IMG/VR virus record: IMGVR_UViG_3300044729_002818
Coordinates: 1 to 29,365 of that record
Reading direction: 5' to 3' (one strand)
DNA length: 29,365 nucleotides
Source of the DNA: a virus
Part shown: positions 18,606 through 29,365 of the stretch, in pieces
How the letters are laid out: each line of letters begins with the position of its first letter
How positions within the stretch are numbered: the stretch's first letter is position 1
The notes under the pieces: model-generated
Seen by the model: only the letters and a program-made list of their open reading frames with translations
Database searches by the model: none
What the model was told of the DNA's origin: nothing
Made by a program: the position numbers and the translations under genes

Positions 18606-19631
18606 TTACGGGAGCGCGCTCACGCTATTGACTGCCACAACCTTAAACGGCTTCAGGCTCACGGGATCTGTTGCGATTCGTGCCGTGACCGTCATCGTCG
18701 TAATGCCTTCGTCTTCACCTGCGATAGGAGTTACCTCTGAGACGACGGTCGAGAGGTAGATCGTGAGGGAATACGTTCCGTCCGTCCACGTGAGACGGAT
18801 AAACTTCTGCGTTCCGAGATCCTTAAAGAACTCGTCGGATGCTGAAGCGTTGGATTGAACCGTCATCGTAAGCTCACCGCCGAGACGCGCCGTCTCTGCG
18901 TGACCCGAGATCGTCGCGGTTCCGTTGAGCGCGCTCCACTTCGCGAGGCCCGTCTGAATCGTGAGCCCGAAGTCGAGGGCGTACCCGTAATCGGTGAAAG
19001 TTCCCGTCGCGAGTGCGGTTCCGATCGCGACCTTCCATAGTCGCCCCGGCATAAAGACGGACGTCGGGATCGCGGTAGACGCCGCAGGGTTCGTCGTCGT
19101 CTCGGCGACGTTCTGCGCGAAGAGCGTCGCGCTGAGAGAGGTTAGTCCTGAGCGTTCCGCGGAGATCGTGATCTCCGTTGGCATCGCGTAGTTAATGAGG
19201 TAGGCGTTACCGCCCGTCGTCGTCCCGCCGAGCGCGTCCTGCGAGATGAACGAATAAGAAGTCGGAGACTGCGATGCGCTTCCGTTCGAAGGGTCCGTCG
19301 TCCACGTATACGGGGCCGCAGTCCCGGAGATCGAAGGAGAGAACGCCATCCCGAGCCAGATTGACGCCTCGTCTACGGATACCGCAGGGACGGAGACGGA
19401 GATCTCAGGCTCGTTAGAAATGAGCGTCGCCTGAGTTGCGATGATAGGCGCGCGGTAGGCGATGGATCGCTCCTCGCCAAGCTCCCACGTCTTCCCGAGA
19501 GTAATGAGGCCCGTAGGCTCGACGAGAAACTTCCGTCCGCCCGAAGCGAACGAAGGAGAAGTCCCCGCGGTTCCCTCGGCCTTACCAATGAGGGACGCGA
19601 ATAGGATGGAGCCCGTATTAGCTGCCGGCAC
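18606..19631 (-). CDS. Major tail tube protein
   Basis: The 341-aa protein is Ser/Thr/Ala/Gly-rich and beta-rich, with repeated blocks such as PEISVSVPAVSVDEASIWLG and AMPTEITISAERSGLTSLSA, fitting a long-tail tube subunit. GTG at 19631 follows AAGGAGAG. Just downstream are the two small overlapping tail-chaperone frames and then the tape measure, the standard siphovirus order. It may carry an extra C-terminal domain (about residues 280-341). Confidence 0.86.
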   Translation of the reverse strand: MPAANTGSILFASLIGKAEGTAGTSPSFASGGRKFLVEPTGLITLGKTWELGEERSIAYRAPIIATQATLISNEPEISVSVPAVSVDEASIWLGMAFSPSISGTAAPYTWTTDPSNGSASQSPTSYSFISQDALGGTTTGGNAYLINYAMPTEITISAERSGLTSLSATLFAQNVAETTTNPAASTAIPTSVFMPGRLWKVAIGTALATGTFTDYGYALDFGLTIQTGLAKWSALNGTATISGHAETARLGGELTMTVQSNASASDEFFKDLGTQKFIRLTWTDGTYSLTIYLSTVVSEVTPIAGEDEGITTMTVTARIATDPVSLKPFKVVAVNSVSALP

Positions 19632-19646
19632 GTCTACTCTCCTTCT

Positions 19647-20087
19647 TTATGCGGACGGGGCGATAACCTCGACCCCGATGATCTGAATATTAGCGTTCAC
19701 GATGATAAACGAGGCGTCCCCGTACTCGGACGAGTCTACATTAGTCGAGACGACGGACGCCTGAGAGACTCCATTAGTCCCGTTAAGTTGGACGCCGTCG
19801 AGAAGGACGTCGCGCATAAAGGCGCGCCACTTCGCCGTCCTCGCATAGTTCCGCGCGTACTCCACGAGCGGGAGATAAAGCGTCGCCGTAACGGAGAGGT
19901 TCGTCTGCCGATTCGAGGCCCCGTAGGCGATGGAGTCGCCGCCCGGGTAGAGGACGACCGCAGGGGTCGCGCCCATCCCGTCGGGAGGGTAGGCGAAGGA
20001 CTGCTTCAGGGTTTCGCCCGTAGGCGGAGTCGCCGCCTTAATATGCGCCGCGAGAGCCTCGAGGATCGTCGCGTCGTCGAACGCCAT
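19647..20087 (-). CDS. Probable tail terminator / tail completion protein
   Basis: The 146-aa protein sits just before the major tail protein, where siphovirus tail terminators lie. Its order fits: an N-terminal helix (DATILEALAAHIKAA), then strands and a helix (YARTAKWRAFMRDVLLDGVQL), ending in beta (FIIVNANIQIIGVEVI). Such proteins cap the tail tube and join it to the head. The assignment rests on position and general pattern, not on a firm motif. Confidence 0.72.
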   Translation of the reverse strand: MAFDDATILEALAAHIKAATPPTGETLKQSFAYPPDGMGATPAVVLYPGGDSIAYGASNRQTNLSVTATLYLPLVEYARNYARTAKWRAFMRDVLLDGVQLNGTNGVSQASVVSTNVDSSEYGDASFIIVNANIQIIGVEVIAPSA

Positions 20088-20695
20088 TAGACCGCCTCGC
20101 GGATGACTCGATACGGGCGGAGCATTAGTTCCACGTCAGGATCGAGGCGCGAGAGGAGGCGTACGATGCCGCCTTCAGGTGACCCGGCGACCCCGTAGGG
20201 CGACTGACGTCTCGCGTGGATTCGTGAGCATTGTAGGAGCGCGGCGGCCTTCACGGGCTCGGGGACGCTTCCGCCCCAACCTCTCGTCCCGATCACCTGT
20301 ACGCCCTCCGTGACGCCGAGCGGGAGGGTATGAGAACCGAAGCTCGTAATCTGAATCGCGGTATAGGGCCATCCGGGGACGACCTTATTCGTCGCGAGGC
20401 GATAATCCGTTCCCGCCGTGAGCGTGATCTCAGGCGTCCCGTCATTGTCTTCGTCCGTCTTAATCGAAGTAACCACGCTCCAATCTCCAATCGGGAGAAA
20501 GAGATAGTTATCCGCGGTAAACGTGACGGTCCCTGCGACGGAGTAAAAGAAGCGTCCGCAATAATCATCGATCGCGCGAGAAACGCTCGTGACGACCTGA
20601 TCGATCTCTTCGGAATCAGGGACGAGCGTAGCCGTCCCGAGCCCGAGGGCCTGTTGGACGTTGTCCCGCGTAACGTATCCGTTCGTAATCGCCAC
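20087..20695 (-). CDS. Head-tail connector (HK97 gp6-like adaptor)
   Basis: The 202-aa protein begins YVTRDNVQQALGL, followed by helices EEIDQVVTSVSRAIDDYCGRFF, a beta-rich middle, and VPEPVKAAALLQCSRIHARR then SPYGVAG near residues 148-175. This layout is typical of gp6-like adaptors that form a ring under the portal. GTG at 20695 follows AAGGAGA. The order connector, terminator, tail tube downstream fits this role. The stop overlaps the next start (20087). Confidence 0.85.
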   Translation of the reverse strand: MAITNGYVTRDNVQQALGLGTATLVPDSEEIDQVVTSVSRAIDDYCGRFFYSVAGTVTFTADNYLFLPIGDWSVVTSIKTDEDNDGTPEITLTAGTDYRLATNKVVPGWPYTAIQITSFGSHTLPLGVTEGVQVIGTRGWGGSVPEPVKAAALLQCSRIHARRQSPYGVAGSPEGGIVRLLSRLDPDVELMLRPYRVIREAV

Positions 20696-20733: not shown

Positions 20734-21411
20734 TTACCTCGTGAGTGCCGTCTCGACCCATCCCACGACGTCGGACTTCGGCGGATCTTCGGAGAGCACG
20801 TTCTCGAAGTCGGGGACAGCGGCGATCGCCGCAGGATCTCCCGCATCGTGCCACCCTCGGACGGTGTTTTGATGGAGCTGCGTATCGGAGGCGTAGCGTT
20901 GGAGGAGATCAGAGAACGGGACCTCGGGTCCGATCGCCATCGCGCGGATCGCCGCATATAGACGCTCCGGGTAGGCGAAGGCGTAGATCCCCACGCAGAC
21001 TGCGAGATAGGGTTTCCCTCGCGTCCATCCCCACCGTGACGGGAGATCCCACGTGCGAGCGGGCGCAGGGGCGACCCCTACCCACGAGCCCTCGGGGAGA
21101 GGTTGCGGGGCGAGGAGGGTATCTGCGAAGAGGACGATCGTCTCCTCCGCGGGCCATCGCGTAATCGAGAGGTAGGCGCGCAGGGCTCCGACGGGTCCGT
21201 CCGTCTCATCGTGCGCGATGACCCTCGCCCACGGAGTAGCCTCGGCGACTGCCTTCACGTCATCCGTTCTCGTGACGATCGTCGTCGGGATGCCTCGGAG
21301 GAGCCTCTCGTGCCAACGATGCGCGGGGACGCCGCCCGCCTCTACGAGAAGTTTATTCGTACCGCCGAGACGAGTCGCCTTACCCGCGGCGAGGATGACT
21401 GCGCGCCTCAC
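20734..21411 (-). CDS. Sugar nucleotidyltransferase-like protein
   Basis: From GTG at 21411 the 225-aa protein begins VRRAVILAAGKATRLGG with a Lys at position 20, the LAAGxxxRxG...K pocket of sugar-phosphate nucleotidyltransferases and related NTP transferases. A later acidic stretch (IVLFADTLL) may supply the metal-binding Asp. It would make an activated sugar for the two neighbouring glycosyltransferases. I chose GTG because it overlaps the upstream stop (GTGA) and the homology starts there; an ATG at 21432 would add seven residues. MobA-like or CTP-dependent specificity cannot be told apart. Confidence 0.82.
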   Translation of the reverse strand: MRRAVILAAGKATRLGGTNKLLVEAGGVPAHRWHERLLRGIPTTIVTRTDDVKAVAEATPWARVIAHDETDGPVGALRAYLSITRWPAEETIVLFADTLLAPQPLPEGSWVGVAPAPARTWDLPSRWGWTRGKPYLAVCVGIYAFAYPERLYAAIRAMAIGPEVPFSDLLQRYASDTQLHQNTVRGWHDAGDPAAIAAVPDFENVLSEDPPKSDVVGWVETALTR

Positions 21412-21947
21412 GGACGGGATTCGTGAACCCATTCAGGGTTGAGACGATAGATCCACGTTACGTCGGGAACGGAGACGAACTTCGCCCCGGCATCGAGAGC
21501 CTTAACCCAGAAACGCCAATCGTAGCCCTTGACGTTATCGAACCCGCCGAGATCGAGGATGAGTTCCGTTCGCACCATCGCGACGTGCGAGACGATCGAA
21601 GTCGTTCGCAGGAGATCGGGATCGAAGGGACGGTTATAAAGATTAAACGCAGGATCTCCGATAACCGTCGCGTAGGAGTAGACGACGTCCGCGCCTTCGG
21701 CGTGATCGAGCATCGTCTCGAGATGATTCGGAAGAAGGAGATCGTCGTCATCGAGGAGCTGCGTCCACTCCGTCTCGACCTGCGAGGCGAGGACGTTCCG
21801 AGGCCGCCACCCTCCGATCTTTTGATAGTCAATCGCGATCAGATGGTCCGCAGGTTTAATAATCTGCGCCGCTACGCTGCGAATACATTCTTCGCGCTGC
21901 GACGATCGATCCGGGAGCGATGCAGTGATAACCGTTACTTCGCTCAC
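21408..21947 (-). CDS. Glycosyltransferase family 2-like (GT-A fold), short
   Basis: The 179-aa protein starts MSEVTVITASLPDR, the first strand of a GT-A fold. A DDDD cluster (66-69) in QLLDDDDLLLPNHLE fits the metal-binding DXD site of GT2 enzymes. WRFWVKALDAGAKFVSVPDVTWIYR near residues 142-167 is the usual C-terminal part. It is shorter than most GT2 proteins but holds the core. The GTG start overlaps the GT4-like stop as GTGA, and its own stop overlaps the next gene the same way, so the three are translated together. Confidence 0.86.
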   Translation of the reverse strand: MSEVTVITASLPDRSSQREECIRSVAAQIIKPADHLIAIDYQKIGGWRPRNVLASQVETEWTQLLDDDDLLLPNHLETMLDHAEGADVVYSYATVIGDPAFNLYNRPFDPDLLRTTSIVSHVAMVRTELILDLGGFDNVKGYDWRFWVKALDAGAKFVSVPDVTWIYRLNPEWVHESRP

Positions 21948-23191
21948 TTCTTCCCCTTTCGGAGGGCCTTTCGCCGCTCCTCCCGATTCACCCCGCCCGT
22001 CGGGACGGGTTTCTTAAGCTCGACCTCCATCCGTTCGAAGATCGCCTTCCAATGCTCATCGTATACCCGGGGCGTTGCGTACTGCTCGGCGAACGAGACG
22101 GCCTGAGCCTTCATCGCGGCGGAGCCCTCCGTATCGCCCTTCAGGGCGTACGAGGCCTCGAGCGCGGCGACGATCGCGTCGATATTCGGGACCTTCCACC
22201 ACGAGCCCTGAAACGAGTCCCATTCGACCTGACCCTCTACGAGCCACCCTGCGCCGCATAGTTCCGTCATAGCCGTCCACCTCGTCGAGACGATCGGGAC
22301 TCCCGAGGCGAGGGATTCGATCTGACTCACCCCGAAGCCCTCTCCTCGCGTTGCGTGAAGGAGAACGTCCGCGGAGCGCGCAATATTCGAGACTGTCTTT
22401 TGATCAATGCCCATTCTGTATTCGTATTGGGGAACGATACGGATTCGATCTCGCGGCATCTTGAGCGCGTTCATTAGCGGCTCGAGCGCGACGCCCTGCG
22501 CCATCCCCGAGAGATCCGTATGAAGATAAAGATATGCGTCGGGATGACGCGCGGCGAAGATTGCCCACGCCGTAAGCTGCTCGCTCCAACACTTCCGAAC
22601 CGGGGTGGAGCCCTTATTCGCGGCGTTGATCCACGTGAGATGCGCGTCCTCCGGGATGCTCATCGTCTTACGCATCGTCTCGCCTTCGGGTCGCCATACC
22701 TCGGGATTAAATGAGTGAGGCGCATAGAACACCTGATCGCGCGGGAGTCCCGCGTTAAGAAGTTCCGTCTCTCCGAATCGGCTCATCGCGACCGCCCACT
22801 TACGACCGCCGCGACGGAAGAACTGAAGGACTTCGGGAGTGACGGGCGAGTGATCGATCGGCGTCCACGAAAGAAGAGGGACGTTATCCCATTCGGGATT
22901 CTTGAGAGGCCATACGTCGAAGAGCGTCATCCCCAAAAACGGACGATCCTTCGTCTCTTCCCGGATGCGCGCCATCTGCGCGGGATGAAGATCGTTCGAA
23001 TAGGCGTCGATTCCCTGCGGATAAACGGAGATCCCGTTCCAATCAAGGACGGTTCCCGAGAGTCCATAGTTCGCGAGGATTGATACGTCGTGCCCGTCCG
23101 CCTTCATTCGCGGTCCGAGCTCCGCCATTTGAGCACCGTATCCCGAGCCCACCCACGGGGCATTCGTCGAGACTGCTACGCGAAGTGCCAT
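21944..23191 (-). CDS. Glycosyltransferase, GT-B fold (GT4-like)
   Basis: The 415-aa protein has a Gly-rich N-terminal loop (NAPWVGSGYGAQ, residues 10-21) and a C-terminal nucleotide-sugar site with the EX7E motif E284-E292 in GEGFGVSQIESLASGVPIVS, as in GT4 retaining glycosyltransferases. It likely moves a sugar from an NDP-sugar to a protein or glycan acceptor in the host cytoplasm. It is first of three sugar genes directly after the capsid gene. ATG at 23191 follows a good ribosome site (AAGGAGG upstream). The C-terminus is very basic (NREERRKALRKGKK). The acceptor is unknown; virion proteins are the best guess. Confidence 0.88.
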   Translation of the reverse strand: MALRVAVSTNAPWVGSGYGAQMAELGPRMKADGHDVSILANYGLSGTVLDWNGISVYPQGIDAYSNDLHPAQMARIREETKDRPFLGMTLFDVWPLKNPEWDNVPLLSWTPIDHSPVTPEVLQFFRRGGRKWAVAMSRFGETELLNAGLPRDQVFYAPHSFNPEVWRPEGETMRKTMSIPEDAHLTWINAANKGSTPVRKCWSEQLTAWAIFAARHPDAYLYLHTDLSGMAQGVALEPLMNALKMPRDRIRIVPQYEYRMGIDQKTVSNIARSADVLLHATRGEGFGVSQIESLASGVPIVSTRWTAMTELCGAGWLVEGQVEWDSFQGSWWKVPNIDAIVAALEASYALKGDTEGSAAMKAQAVSFAEQYATPRVYDEHWKAIFERMEVELKKPVPTGGVNREERRKALRKGKK

Positions 23192-23223: not shown

Positions 23224-23259
23224 GGAGAGGGCCCCCGGGTTTCCCCGAGGACCCTCTCC
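23224..23259 (-). terminator. Strong hairpin after the capsid gene
   Basis: On the minus strand the RNA folds as a 16-bp stem (two G-U pairs, no mismatches) closed by a GAAA tetraloop. Only a weak ATTTATA tract follows, so it may be a partial terminator or a 3'-end stabiliser that keeps capsid mRNA high and lowers expression of the downstream sugar genes. It lies in the gap between the capsid stop and the next start at 23191. Confidence 0.8.
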
Positions 23260-23289: not shown

Positions 23290-24474
23290 TTAGCTATTCG
23301 CTGAGACGAGGATTCGGCCCGCTGCGCCGTCGGGGAGGTTCGAGTCGAACTGATAGATCGATCGGATGCCGATCGAGTTAAGTTCGAAATAACGATCCTC
23401 GCTCGTAGCCACGGACAGAGAACCTGCCTCGCGGATATAGATCGAAGGCTCGTGAACGATCGCCACGGACTTAGAGGCCGAAGCGACCGCCGCCATATAT
23501 GGATTCTCGATCACGCGGTAGCCGAGGAGGGTTTCAGGCTGACCCGCAGCCTGCGACGCCTGCCAAACGAACTGACCGTTTAGATCTTGGAATCCGCGCA
23601 TCTTTCGCGCTGCGCCCGTTGATACGTGCCACGCGGTATTCGCGTTGCGGTACTTAGGGGCCAAAGCGTAGAGTGCGGTCTGAACGTCCAAGAGGTCGAA
23701 GAAGGTCGCCGTGACCGTTCCGCCCTTCGTTGCGGTCGTAAGTGCGCCCGCGGTCGTGAGAGCGGAAATGAAGCCCGTAGGCTGAACCGTTCCCGTTCCG
23801 AGGGTACAGGCTGAACCCGCGAGCTGCGCGATCTGAGCACCTGCGGCTCGTCCCACGTACTCCACGAGGTTAAACCCTGCGCTATCCACGAGCTCGCGTG
23901 AAGCGAGCGTGAGGGTAGCGGCTGCGAACGATCCGAGTGTAATCGAAGTGAACACCGGGTCCGCCGCGCTGATCGTGCCACCCTGAGCGACAAATGCCGC
24001 CGCCGGGGCCGTACCTGCGAGGATTGGAACGGTGATGTTTCGGTTATCGGTTGTGCGAATCTTCGTTGCGCCCGCATATACAACGTTGTCGTTCACGAGC
24101 TGCTCGACGACGAAGTCGGCGAACGTCACGGGAGTCGTCGCGGTTGCGGTTGCGAGTGCGCGCATCTCGAAGTTAGCGGTTCGCTTGTCGCCCTTAATCA
24201 AGGCGCGAAGAGCGTCGGCGTCATTCTCGATCGTCTTAGAAGTTGCGACTTCGACGGCCCCGATCACGGCGGAGAGCTTCGCTGAACGCTCCTCGCCCTT
24301 CTTTAGGTCCTCGATCTTCGCGAGCTTAGAATCCATAGCCTCGTTTAGCTTGGAATACTGAGCCTCTTCCTCTGCGGAAAGTTCTCGAGCCTCTTCCGAT
24401 GCGCGGGAAACGAGAGCCTTAGCGGCCTCGAAATCGCGTCGGTAGGCGTCGTGTAGCTGATTGACGACAGACAT
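23290..24474 (-). CDS. Major capsid protein, HK97 fold
   Basis: The 394-aa shell protein has a charged, coiled-coil N-terminal delta domain (about residues 5-70, rich in Glu, Lys and Ala) that acts as built-in scaffold. Maturation cleavage is likely near residues 92-106 (ALIKGDKRTANFEMRAL), before the HK97-fold core (Phage_capsid, PF05065 type). Core motifs include AAFVAQGGTISAADPVFTSI, ASRELVDSAGFNLVEYV and a C-terminal RILVSANS strand. ATG at 24474 follows AGAAAGG. The gene is followed by a strong hairpin, as expected for a highly expressed gene. Confidence 0.95.
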   Translation of the reverse strand: MSVVNQLHDAYRRDFEAAKALVSRASEEARELSAEEEAQYSKLNEAMDSKLAKIEDLKKGEERSAKLSAVIGAVEVATSKTIENDADALRALIKGDKRTANFEMRALATATATTPVTFADFVVEQLVNDNVVYAGATKIRTTDNRNITVPILAGTAPAAAFVAQGGTISAADPVFTSITLGSFAAATLTLASRELVDSAGFNLVEYVGRAAGAQIAQLAGSACTLGTGTVQPTGFISALTTAGALTTATKGGTVTATFFDLLDVQTALYALAPKYRNANTAWHVSTGAARKMRGFQDLNGQFVWQASQAAGQPETLLGYRVIENPYMAAVASASKSVAIVHEPSIYIREAGSLSVATSEDRYFELNSIGIRSIYQFDSNLPDGAAGRILVSANS

Positions 24475-24581: not shown

Positions 24582-25364
24582 TTATCGTAGCGCGCGCTTC
24601 GCGAGTTCGATCTCTTTCTCCCGCGTGGATCGCGGGACGCTGCGCGGCGCGGACTCTTCGACGATCATCTCCTCGGGAGTCTCTTCGGCGACGACCTCGC
24701 CTTCGGCGATATCTTCCGCCTTCTCCGCCTCGTCTTCGGCGACGACTGCGGCGATCGCCTCGGCGAGGAGGCGAGCCTGATCCTCAGAGACGTCCCCGGA
24801 GAGGAGCGCGTTCACCGCGGCGCGGAGAGGCTCGATCTCGAGGCCCGCCTCGGAGGCGAGGGATCGGACGGATACGGTCGAGATTGTGGACGGATAGTAG
24901 GGCGAGAGCCCCGTAAGGGCGGAGACCTCGACGAGCTTCACGTCGCGAAGTTCGCGGACGCCGTCCTCGTTCACCTTATTCGCGTTCGTGGAGTAGAACC
25001 CGAAGGAGAGCCCGAGGGACTTTCCCATCGTGCGGACGATCTCTGCGAGGTCGCGATGGAACGAGACGTTCGGGTTTAGGCGGATGCGGGCGAGGAGGCC
25101 GTCCTCGCGATCCTCGAGCTCGAGGGTTCCCGTCTTCGTCGTGCCGAGGAGACGCTCGGGATTATGATCGGCGTATGCCTTCACGTCCCATTCTCCGCGC
25201 CCTGCGGCGGCGAGAGAGCGGGCGAACGCGCCCTTCTTTACGATCTCGGGGTTCGTGCCTTCCGCGGATGGCGAGTCGTAGACTGCCGCCATACCCTCGA
25301 ACGTAAACCCGTCCTCGTCCACGGCTCGTAGTTCTGCCGTTGTGCGTCGGAACTCGATCGCCAT
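24582..25364 (-). CDS. Prohead maturation protease from an internal start (predicted second product)
   Basis: ATG at 25364 (MAIEFRRTTAEL), in frame within the 508-aa fusion, is preceded by AAGGAG with a 5-base spacer. This is one of the best ribosome sites in the window and is hard to explain unless it is used. The product would be 260 aa, a normal length for a free HK97-type prohead protease, and begins where the protease homology begins. It would cut the capsid delta domain during head maturation. That both long and short forms exist is inference. Confidence 0.65.
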   Translation of the reverse strand: MAIEFRRTTAELRAVDEDGFTFEGMAAVYDSPSAEGTNPEIVKKGAFARSLAAAGRGEWDVKAYADHNPERLLGTTKTGTLELEDREDGLLARIRLNPNVSFHRDLAEIVRTMGKSLGLSFGFYSTNANKVNEDGVRELRDVKLVEVSALTGLSPYYPSTISTVSVRSLASEAGLEIEPLRAAVNALLSGDVSEDQARLLAEAIAAVVAEDEAEKAEDIAEGEVVAEETPEEMIVEESAPRSVPRSTREKEIELAKRALR

Positions 25365-26108
25365 CTCGTCTCCTTCGTTTCGTTGCGCGTCTTCTTCGGA
25401 CGCTTCACGGATGATACGCGATGCCCACGCCATCCCGCTATCTCCCGACCATAGAGCCCACGCGATACGACCGTTCGACGGATAGCCGTCTTCGCCCGGG
25501 CGGAATCCCTCCGCCTCCTTATCGACTTCGTGACGCGCGAAGTAAGACGACATCCTTACGACCGTCTCGTAGGGGAGTCGTCGTCCGTTCGAAATATCTC
25601 GAGCTCGTGCGATCCCGATCTCCGTACCGCCACGCCCGAACTCTCGCCGCCACTCGAGGCCCTTCTCCGCCTCGGCGCGCATCTCTGCCGTGGGCTCGTA
25701 GCCGTCGGGATCGATCGCTCGGGCAGAGAGGCGGACGAACGCCTCGGGGCCGTAGGCGTCGATCCCCATTCCCTCGGCGGCATCTCGCGCCTCGGCGTCG
25801 TCGTCCACGAGGTAGCCGATCTGATCGCCGAACTCTTCGAGGAGCTTCGAATACTTAAACGCCTTAAAGGCTTCGATCACGGGGAGGCTCGAATCTTCGG
25901 AGAAGTCCTGAAGGTAGATCGCCTCGTACGGGATCTCGTTCTCTGCGAGCCACGCCTTCGTCTCGTCCAACCGGGCGACGGCGCGTCCTGAGACGATAAA
26001 GATCCTCTCGCCCTTCTCGGCCTCTTCGCGGAGCCTCGCGATAACGGGTTCGTTCGGAGTATTGCCGCTCGTCGTAAGCGTTCCGTCGATATCGAAGATC
26101 AGGATCAC
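24582..26108 (-). CDS. HAD-like phosphatase / linker domain / HK97-type prohead protease fusion
   Basis: This 508-aa open frame holds three parts. Residues 1-125 look like a HAD phosphatase: FDIDGT with D6 and D8, VSGR with S40, a Lys-rich stretch (K85, K88), and VDDD at 101-104. Residues 155-232 carry a domain often found beside phage head proteases (VRMSSYFARHEVDKE, GEDGYPSNGRIAWALW). Residues 249-508 form a prohead protease of S78/U35 type, with candidate catalytic H315 (YADHNPERLLG) and S368 (GLSFGF), then an acidic tail. The start is GTG at 26108 overlapping the upstream TGA. A phosphatase on a head protease is unusual. An internal start at 25364 probably also makes protease alone. Confidence 0.88.
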   Translation of the reverse strand: MILIFDIDGTLTTSGNTPNEPVIARLREEAEKGERIFIVSGRAVARLDETKAWLAENEIPYEAIYLQDFSEDSSLPVIEAFKAFKYSKLLEEFGDQIGYLVDDDAEARDAAEGMGIDAYGPEAFVRLSARAIDPDGYEPTAEMRAEAEKGLEWRREFGRGGTEIGIARARDISNGRRLPYETVVRMSSYFARHEVDKEAEGFRPGEDGYPSNGRIAWALWSGDSGMAWASRIIREASEEDAQRNEGDEMAIEFRRTTAELRAVDEDGFTFEGMAAVYDSPSAEGTNPEIVKKGAFARSLAAAGRGEWDVKAYADHNPERLLGTTKTGTLELEDREDGLLARIRLNPNVSFHRDLAEIVRTMGKSLGLSFGFYSTNANKVNEDGVRELRDVKLVEVSALTGLSPYYPSTISTVSVRSLASEAGLEIEPLRAAVNALLSGDVSEDQARLLAEAIAAVVAEDEAEKAEDIAEGEVVAEETPEEMIVEESAPRSVPRSTREKEIELAKRALR

Positions 26109-26374
26109 GGGTCCACCTGAAAATCGAAGACGTGGGCCTCGCCGTCCACATCAAGGGAAACGGCGTAAAGGATATCGCCGTTCGCGATCTTCACTTCTCG
26201 GAACGACGACGCGGGAATATGGAATCCGTTCGCCGTCGTCACATCCGACGCCCCGAGAAAGATTGACTTATTAGAGTCGTTATAGATCGAGAGCTCGTGC
26301 GTATTCTTGGCGGATGCCGTTCCGATCGCGACCGTCGCCGTTCCGATTGTGTAGTGACGCGACGTGAACGTCAT
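26105..26374 (-). CDS. Small beta-rich virion-associated protein, unknown
   Basis: This 89-aa protein has alternating hydrophobic and polar residues (HYTIGTATVAIGTASAKN, LSIYNDSNKSIFLGA), suggesting a compact beta sandwich with no membrane segment. It sits between portal and prohead protease, overlapping both by 4 bases (ATGA at its start, GTGA at its end). Position and fold suggest a head decoration or minor capsid protein, but I recognise no family with certainty. Confidence 0.7.
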   Translation of the reverse strand: MTFTSRHYTIGTATVAIGTASAKNTHELSIYNDSNKSIFLGASDVTTANGFHIPASSFREVKIANGDILYAVSLDVDGEAHVFDFQVDP

Positions 26375-27782: not shown

Positions 27783-29290
27783 AGGCTAAAAAACTCCACA
27801 CTTCGGGACGGCTTCTCCGCCTCTGACGCATAATAGCGCGCCCGATCCAATGCCATAACCGCCGCGACGGCGAGGTCGATCTTTCGCGGAGATCCGCGAT
27901 GCTCCTTGACGATGCGCGGCCCGAAACGATCCGTCTTGACGGTCGTATTCGCGAGATGCCGAACGAGAGCCTTCGAGAGGTTCGGCTCCCCGCCCCACGT
28001 GAGCGTCCCCTGCGTGACGGATTCGAAGAACGCTTGAGACGAGGCGACCATCCGGGAGGGACTCTGCGGATAGTGGACGACCCGTAGACCTTCGCGCTCG
28101 AGGATCTCGAGGCTCCTCGCCCAACGGAACGGGTCCGCCGCGAGCTCGACGATCTCGTATTTCTTCGCGAGCTCGAGGATCGCCGCCTCTACCTCGGAGA
28201 TATCGACGCGCCAATGAGGATCGTCGATCGGACGCTCGTAGCAGAGAAGGGGTTCGACGTGCCCATCGAGCGTCGCGGCGCAGAGAACCGATGCGTCGCC
28301 GTCGAAAGATCCGTCAAACGCCGCCACGATCTTCTCGCCCGGGATGAGACGGCGCGGAGACTCGAGCCTCTCGAAGGAGCCCGTCGGGAGCCACGAGGTC
28401 GCGCGCTGAATCCAACGATTAAGACGCTTCGTCTCGAACTCGTCTCGCGGGATGGACTTCGCGGCGGCGGCGAAGTCCTCGGGGTCGAGAAAGTCTCCGA
28501 ACGCAGGGTTCGCCGCGGCCCACGCCTCGGGCGAATCCCACGCGATCTCCTCGGATGCGTGGAAGTATTGGAAGAAGAAGGCGTCGTCCTGAACCTCCCC
28601 CGACTGAAGGCGCATCCCATACTGAAAGAGTCGATAGCAGATGGAGTCCTGACCTCGTGAATCCGTCCGCGCGCCCGCGGTCGAGATGCCGAGGACGAGA
28701 GGATTCTTTCGCGTACCCGATCCGAGGTTTACCGTCGCCCATAGACGATCGTCGGGCTGAACGTGGATCTCGTCGAAGATGACGGTCGAGAAGTTGTAAC
28801 CCTCCGCGCGTGAAGCGTCCGACGAGAGCACGCGAAGGACGGAGCCCGTCTCGGGGTACTCGATCACGTCGCGCATAACGCGAAGTTTTCGGGAGAGGTT
28901 CGGATCGAGCTCCACCATACGCGCGCACTCTCGGAAGACGATCCGCGCTTGAGCCCTATCCCCTGCGACGATCGCGACCTCGGCTCCGACTTCGGTAAAG
29001 AGTGAGTAGAGCGCGACGCCCGAGGCGAGGATGGACTTCCCGTTCTTTCTCGGCATTAAGAGAAGGCCGCGCCGATACTTACGGCGACCATCCTCACGAT
29101 GCGAGAAGAGTTCCGAGAGGATCTCCTTCTGCCAATCTCGGAGGCGGATTAGTTCTCCTGCGCCGTCGCCCTTCGAGAGGCGACAGAATGACTCGATAAA
29201 GTCCGCGACGACTTCGCCTTCAGGCTTAGGCGCGGCGAGCTGCGCGGATGATGGCGTCGAGCTTCGACGTCGCCGAGTTCGCGTTTTCAT
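27779..29290 (-). CDS. terL: Terminase large subunit
   Basis: The 503-aa packaging motor pumps DNA into the prohead and cuts it. The ATPase half has a Walker A-like PRKNGKS near residues 80-86 and Walker B VIFDE near 170-174. The nuclease half shows acidic residues in AFDGSFDGD (about 325-332), AADPF (about 384-388) and KIDLAV near the end. The PRKNGKS form is typical of HK97-type terminases (Terminase_1). ATG at 29290 follows AGGAGAG, supporting this start. It overlaps terS by 65 bases and the next gene by ATGA. Length is normal for the family. Confidence 0.96.
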   Translation of the reverse strand: MKTRTRRRRSSTPSSAQLAAPKPEGEVVADFIESFCRLSKGDGAGELIRLRDWQKEILSELFSHREDGRRKYRRGLLLMPRKNGKSILASGVALYSLFTEVGAEVAIVAGDRAQARIVFRECARMVELDPNLSRKLRVMRDVIEYPETGSVLRVLSSDASRAEGYNFSTVIFDEIHVQPDDRLWATVNLGSGTRKNPLVLGISTAGARTDSRGQDSICYRLFQYGMRLQSGEVQDDAFFFQYFHASEEIAWDSPEAWAAANPAFGDFLDPEDFAAAAKSIPRDEFETKRLNRWIQRATSWLPTGSFERLESPRRLIPGEKIVAAFDGSFDGDASVLCAATLDGHVEPLLCYERPIDDPHWRVDISEVEAAILELAKKYEIVELAADPFRWARSLEILEREGLRVVHYPQSPSRMVASSQAFFESVTQGTLTWGGEPNLSKALVRHLANTTVKTDRFGPRIVKEHRGSPRKIDLAVAAVMALDRARYYASEAEKPSRSVEFFSL

Positions 29291-29365
29291 CGATCTCTCC
29301 TCTCAGGCCCACCCGCGCCGCGGGCGTGAGCCCCATCTCCCGGGCGTACTTCTTCACCGCGTCCG
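29226..29365 (-). CDS. terS: Terminase small subunit, 3' part (same gene as 1-454)
   Basis: This is the continuation of the small terminase after wrapping around the junction. Bases 29258-29365 repeat 1-108, and the frame ends in TAA at 29226-29228 with the tail SKLDAIIRAARRA. The last 65 bases overlap the start of terL in another frame, a common arrangement for terS/terL pairs. It is partial here only at the window edge. Confidence 0.88.
   Translation of the reverse strand, partial: DAVKKYAREMGLTPAARVGLRGEIDENANSATSKLDAIIRAARRA
29258..29365. repeat. Terminal direct repeat, right copy
   Basis: Exact copy of bases 1-108. It carries the start of terL and part of terS, and lets both genes be read across the window edge. 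Confidence 0.95.

Follow-up and report, generated by a model that had tools for sequence, protein, structure and literature searches.

The viral genome that we analyzed (IMG/VR record IMGVR_UViG_3300044729_002818, a stretch of 29,365 nucleotides hereafter called the window) encodes, inside its head operon, a three-gene cassette whose best-supported function is glycosylation of the virion, which we consider probable. The cassette consists of a GT4-type glycosyltransferase (GT4), a GT2-type glycosyltransferase (GT2) and a MobA/sugar-nucleotidyltransferase-like protein (NTP). This function is favored because of the position in the head operon, the lack of a predicted membrane helix, the lack of recognized DNA-modification genes among those scanned and published precedent. 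Among relatives, GT4 is nearly fixed directly behind the capsid gene, and GT2 and NTP are present or absent as a pair.

Organization of the genome and head module

The window represents a phage genome in full: the 108 bases at either end (1-108 and 29258-29365) are the same, which leaves ~29.26 kb. This direct terminal repeat sits within the gene for the terminase small subunit, indicating a circularly mapping genome, and that gene lies at the left end, as expected of a circular map. The genome is that of a siphophage of ~29.3 kb with the minus-strand order large terminase, portal, HAD-protease, HK97-type capsid, three cassette genes, head-tail adaptor, tail completion, tail tube and tape measure (Table 1), the last three roles being assigned by position and shape. 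The putative tail tube protein had no family match in Pfam or PHROGs. The HAD domain of the protease resembles the phosphatase half of polynucleotide kinase-phosphatase, and such a domain was present in 86 of the 156 long protease ORFs from relatives, a redundant set.

An initial annotation made from the sequence had placed the three genes between the major capsid gene and the head-tail connector (CON), with GTGA at each junction, and both the placement and the two GTGA junctions were confirmed. Tandem phage-encoded glycosyltransferases sharing one operon are also one mark of the Che8/Corndog-type cassette. GT4, GT2 and NTP are all under purifying selection as judged by dN/dS, which was 0.05-0.15 in comparison with two close relatives (L006 and L008), similar to the capsid gene.

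Table 1. Features of the glycosylation cassette and its surroundings in the window.
Feature	Position	Strand	Basis or remark
Putative major tail tube protein, alternative acceptor	18606..19631	-	Position and conservation
Head-tail adaptor/connector (CON), downstream cassette border	20087..20695	-	phrog_442, E 2.7e-14
MobA/sugar-nucleotidyltransferase-like protein (NTP), 232 aa	20734..21432	-	PF12804, PDB profile matches
GT2-type, presumed GT-A glycosyltransferase, 179 aa	21408..21947	-	phrog_14775, alignment
GT4-type, GT-B fold retaining glycosyltransferase, 415 aa	21944..23191	-	Pfam, PHROGs, AlphaFold2
16-bp GC-rich hairpin between capsid gene and GT4	23224..23259	-	MFE, z-score, relatives' folds
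HK97-type major capsid protein	23290..24474	-	PF05065, E 1e-39; C-terminus ...GRILVSANS
Prohead protease with N-terminal HAD phosphatase domain (residues 2-119)	24582-26108	-	
Small 89-aa protein between portal and protease	26105-26374		

Enzymes of the cassette

The enzyme classes first proposed for the three proteins (GT4-like, GT2-like and sugar nucleotidyltransferase) were upheld by family matches and motifs. The motifs on which the proposal drew, EX7E (EGFGVSQIE), DDDD and LAAGxxxRxG, were all found, and proved conserved when 21, 15 and 15 relatives, respectively, were aligned.

For GT4, PF13692 (Glyco_trans_1_4) and PF00534 (Glycos_transf_1) both exceeded the Pfam cut-off, phrog_2170 matched with an E value of 5.5e-24, and EX7E was invariant across the 21 aligned relatives. 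Fold prediction, suggested earlier as a check on the enzyme classes, yielded an AlphaFold2 model (mean pLDDT 83) of GT-B fold with MshA (3c4q, TM 0.69) as top PDB match. The modeled fold together with EX7E identifies GT4 as a GT-B enzyme of the retaining family GT4. Its fold matches include the envelope and small-molecule enzymes MshA, PimA, PimB' and WaaG, at 13-18% identity, a level that reflects the whole GT-B class. No membrane helix was predicted in the cassette proteins.

GT2 scored 22.2 bits against Glycos_transf_2, slightly under the cut-off of 23.3, and matched phrog_14775 (glycosyltransferase) with an E value of 3.5e-21. In the alignment of 15, DDDD, D143 and a C-terminal HESRP were all invariant, D143 having the appearance of a catalytic-type Asp. 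The profile match, the DXD motif and this putative catalytic Asp place the protein in family GT2, with a presumed GT-A fold. The N-terminal domain of Che8 gp108 is a homolog of GT2 (HMM E 8.7e-10), and phrog_14775 matches both.

The true start of NTP is probably the GTG at 21411, within the GTGA junction, which gives a protein of 225 aa; in the relative L021 the equivalent gene begins at an ATGA in the same place. NTP matched PF12804 (NTP_transf_3) with 49.8 bits against a cut-off of 27 (E 5.5e-13), and its PDB profile matches were MobA and CTP:inositol-1-phosphate cytidylyltransferase. The structural check assigned NTP to the IspD/RmlA/MobA fold class, with a model of low confidence (pLDDT 63). 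MobA, IspD and inositol-1-phosphate cytidylyltransferase are also among the family-level matches, and models and profiles resolve the substrate no further than the superfamily. The NTP_transf signature and the predicted fold are consistent with a nucleotidyltransferase acting on a putative sugar-1-phosphate substrate, and an activated sugar is its probable product. We also considered whether GT4 or NTP came from bacteria or had a bacterial operon context and set this aside: a scan of genome contigs gave no relative of GT4 and two matches to NTP, both confined to the signature motif.

Distribution of the cassette among relatives

Relatives were gathered by searching IMG/VR with the capsid protein, that is, with no selection for glycosyltransferases, and 42 contigs were found. 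In all 34 relatives whose capsid was close and whose contig ran on for 363 bp or more, GT4 was the next gene after the capsid gene. Seven of the 42 contigs stop at most 110 bp past the capsid gene and thus fall outside the 34, and one contig with a distant capsid (26% identity) was without GT4. Co-occurrence with this capsid type, which had been proposed as a check, was thus found for GT4 in all capsid-ascertained relatives with enough sequence, and the suggestion that the placement is unusual did not hold within this phage group. Behind GT4, 18 of the 34 carried GT2 and NTP, and in seven the connector came after GT4 and these two genes were missing, L219 among the seven having a fiber gene pair in the interval; the remaining nine contigs had no further recognized gene, mostly from early contig ends.

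A wider set of 57 distinct GT4-CON intervals, taken from all fetched loci and partly ascertained via GT2 or NTP queries, comprised 40 with GT2 and NTP, 16 with neither (including Pontimonas phage phiPsal1, despite its own GT2 of another branch), one with a distant GT2 alone and none with NTP without GT2 (Fisher p ~3e-13, kinship ignored). Among 14 long contigs, nine had both genes and five had neither, and in these five no recognizable copy was found elsewhere on the contig. GT2 and NTP thus act as a single module across the intervals, a pattern consistent with NTP supplying the donor that GT2 uses, whereas GT4 stands alone. The initial description of a complete cassette that activates a sugar and transfers it in two steps agrees with the enzyme classes, but "complete" is too strong, since the host must supply the putative sugar-1-phosphate and 16 of the 57 intervals lack this GT2 and NTP.

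The interval behind GT4 also accommodates other genes. In L016, L041 and L182, a collagen-like/Phage_fiber_2 protein and a small BppU-like partner are inserted as a pair between cassette and connector (L016:9913-11465, L041:10582-12356 and L182:7265-8862), forming a tail-fiber-like module inside the head operon. The interval of L185 contains a P-loop kinase and that of L184 a P-loop kinase plus another GT2. The P-loop kinase of L024, L184 and L185, which adjoins or is near GT4, shows matches to portions of certain families of terminase small subunits and head proteases.

The position of GT4 is tied to the capsid gene strongly, not absolutely. In another lineage GT4 lies upstream of terminase (L024, L189, L197 and L059, the last with GT2 and NTP). 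The L059 set (L059:23-2141) is ~40% identical to that of the window and is located upstream of terminase rather than behind the capsid gene. Comparison of the window with L011 gave 89% identity for GT2, 94% for NTP and 89% for the tail tube, versus 59% for GT4 and 66% for the portal, a mosaic that points to recombination within the cassette. Judging from the relationship to phiPsal1, the host may be a freshwater organism or an actinobacterium.

A hairpin separates the capsid gene from the cassette

Between the capsid stop and the GT4 start lies a hairpin with a weak T tract; the gap folded with an MFE of -47.5 kcal/mol (z -4.3). A strong hairpin was found in 22 of 22 capsid-GT4 gaps folded, that of phiPsal1 included, with stems unrelated in sequence between lineages. 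Consensus folding of the gaps (MAFFT) returned no shared pairs, as the stems differ between lineages, and the gaps were folded per sequence instead.

The simplest reading is that this terminator-like structure causes partial termination, or else RNA processing, which would keep the capsid message high and the cassette and downstream genes lower, and the hairpin would thus argue against equal expression of cassette and capsid. Lower expression agrees with the glycosylation model because enzymes are needed in small amounts. In the initial annotation, the acceptor had been argued from late expression next to the capsid. The cassette does lie inside the structural operon, but co-expression is deduced from gene order only, the hairpin intervenes and no promoter-like site was found in the capsid-GT4 gap, so that the hairpin weakens this argument.

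Comparison with known phage glycosylation systems

Corndog already provides a precedent for a glycosyltransferase cassette within the head operon, and phiPsal1 one for its exact position. Corndog has O-methyltransferase and glycosyltransferase genes between portal and protease, and the cluster O mycobacteriophages have an O-methyltransferase and three glycosyltransferase-type genes whose products were seen in infected cells and not among virion proteins, the capsid peptides of these phages being strikingly scarce (PMC4351075). According to work cited in PMC12363180 and PMC12619734, virion proteins of Corndog, Che8 and Myrna are glycosylated, and glycans are reported on the capsid and tail tube C-termini. 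PMC12363180 describes gp110/gp38 as the essential glycosyltransferases in Che8/Corndog; nothing in the window cassette matches them. Neither GT4 nor NTP had a detectable relative among Che8 or Corndog-type cassette proteins.

The closest precedent is Corndog gp35-38, which, like the window, consists of tandem glycosyltransferase genes inside the head operon, in a phage whose virions are reported to be glycosylated; the products were present in infected cells but absent from the SDS-PAGE virion set. In contrast to the window, the Corndog cassette lies between the portal and protease genes, contains an O-methyltransferase and lacks a nucleotidyltransferase. Its glycosyltransferase families also differ, in that proteins of the cluster O phage Familton, the stand-in for Corndog in the layout and protein comparison, did not match the window GT4 or NTP. 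Che8 (cluster F1) gp108-110 likewise form a set of three overlapping genes in a phage with a glycosylated capsid and, according to citing papers, tail tube. The GT2 domain of gp108 is homologous to the window GT2, whereas gp109 and gp110 are unrelated to GT4 and NTP, and the Che8 cassette is at the far right genome end, away from the head genes.

Genes 009-012 of phiPsal1 show the same order (capsid gene, GT4, GT2, neck) in the same head module, with a GT4 homologous to that of the window (31% identity, profile E 7e-92). They differ in that the GT2 belongs to another branch, an antisense gene for a methyltransferase intervenes and a nucleotidyltransferase is absent. These genes are annotated in the record, and a literature search found no functional study of them. 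The "RfaG" cluster of Microcystis phage Mae-JY09 similarly has a homologous GT4 and a GT2-like protein between major capsid protein and adaptor, but with a NAD-dependent nucleotide-sugar epimerase in place of the nucleotidyltransferase; its other head genes gave no tblastn match to those of the window. Genes 165-171 of Arthrobacter phage Atuin include a homolog of the window GT2 (32%) followed by another glycosyltransferase and an annotated nucleotidyl transferase, but this set belongs to the replication/RNA-repair region of its 194-kb genome, and the nucleotidyl transferase has no match to NTP.

Discussion

Position alone does not name the acceptor, because some lineages have GT4 upstream of terminase. 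We propose the major capsid protein as the main acceptor, with the tail tube as an alternative. Linking GT4 to an acceptor by correlated distances was uninformative, as the values for the major capsid protein and the portal were equal (0.80 and 0.80). LVSAN[ST], or a sequence close to it, forms the C-terminus of nearly all capsid proteins of the group, and a few end in Ala. The Che8 capsid and tail tube end in TGS and DGS, respectively, and two control capsids from phages free of glycosyltransferases end in PAV and LGA. With only these two controls, the Ser/Thr-rich capsid C-terminus may tentatively be considered a candidate glycan site.

The initial preference for a virion acceptor over host wall or DNA stands insofar as base-hypermodification genes and membrane helices are concerned; its narrower choice of capsid or tail tube is a proposal that we share. 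The main rival, which we consider unlikely, is modification of the host envelope: late in infection, GT4 and GT2 would add sugar to a lipid or wall polymer of the host and so hide the receptor, preventing superinfection or the re-adsorption of progeny to debris. The resemblance of GT4 to MshA, PimA, PimB' and WaaG, which act as soluble or peripheral membrane enzymes, and the PHROGs category of these families (moron/host takeover) would suit such a role. However, these matches are as broad as the GT-B class itself, GT4 is strictly behind the capsid gene in the capsid-ascertained relatives, and neither a membrane helix nor a flippase or Gtr-like partner was recognized.

It is still less probable that the acceptor is an accessory head or tail protein, such as head fibers or the 89-aa protein, instead of capsid or tail tube. 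Collagen-like repeats are known bacterial glycosylation targets, and collagen-like/Phage_fiber_2 proteins with their small partner adjoin the cassette in three relatives, but most members, the window included, keep GT4 without a fiber in the interval. Glycosylation of phage DNA, with hypermodified bases protecting from host restriction, appears very improbable. Phage glycosyltransferases acting on DNA are known (cited in PMC12619734), but the cassette is in the structural module, not the replication module. We rejected this candidate because the companion base-hypermodification genes (thymidylate-synthase-like, TET/JBP or base-kinase) were not recognized among the window proteins scanned.

For virion glycosylation, the preferred reading, we infer a scheme of substrates, transfer order, acceptor, expression level and effect on the particle as follows. 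Late transcription would read through past the hairpin to give modest amounts of three cytoplasmic enzymes. With a host nucleotide-sugar as donor, GT4 would place the initial sugar on a virion protein, for which the likeliest candidates are the major capsid protein (its conserved Ser/Thr-rich C-terminus being a possible site), the tail tube or both. In phages that have NTP, this enzyme would convert a host sugar-1-phosphate, or a similar phosphate ester, into the NDP-donor from which the compact GT2 would extend the glycan. A broader proposal, which we offer tentatively as possible, is that capsid glycosylation is constitutive across a clade of small phages, of presumed freshwater origin, with GT4 fixed in the head operon like the protease or the connector. 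A swappable second module (GT2 and NTP, another GT2, a P-loop kinase or a fiber pair) would set what is added, so that the outer sugar varies among relatives with one capsid.

New aspects are that the cassette includes a nucleotidyltransferase of its own among its enzymes and that, in many uncultivated phages, GT4 is nearly fixed and the second module can be swapped. If the proposal is correct, capsid glycosylation would be a fixed trait of a widespread uncultivated, probably aquatic, phage group and not a curiosity of a few mycobacteriophages, and it would be carried out by enzymes (a GT-B GT4 and a nucleotidyltransferase) different from those of the proven cases. Relatives with GT4 alone and those with GT4, GT2 and NTP would then be predicted to bear one-step and extended glycans, respectively, on nearly the same capsid, and phiPsal1 on Pontimonas would offer a cultivated model.
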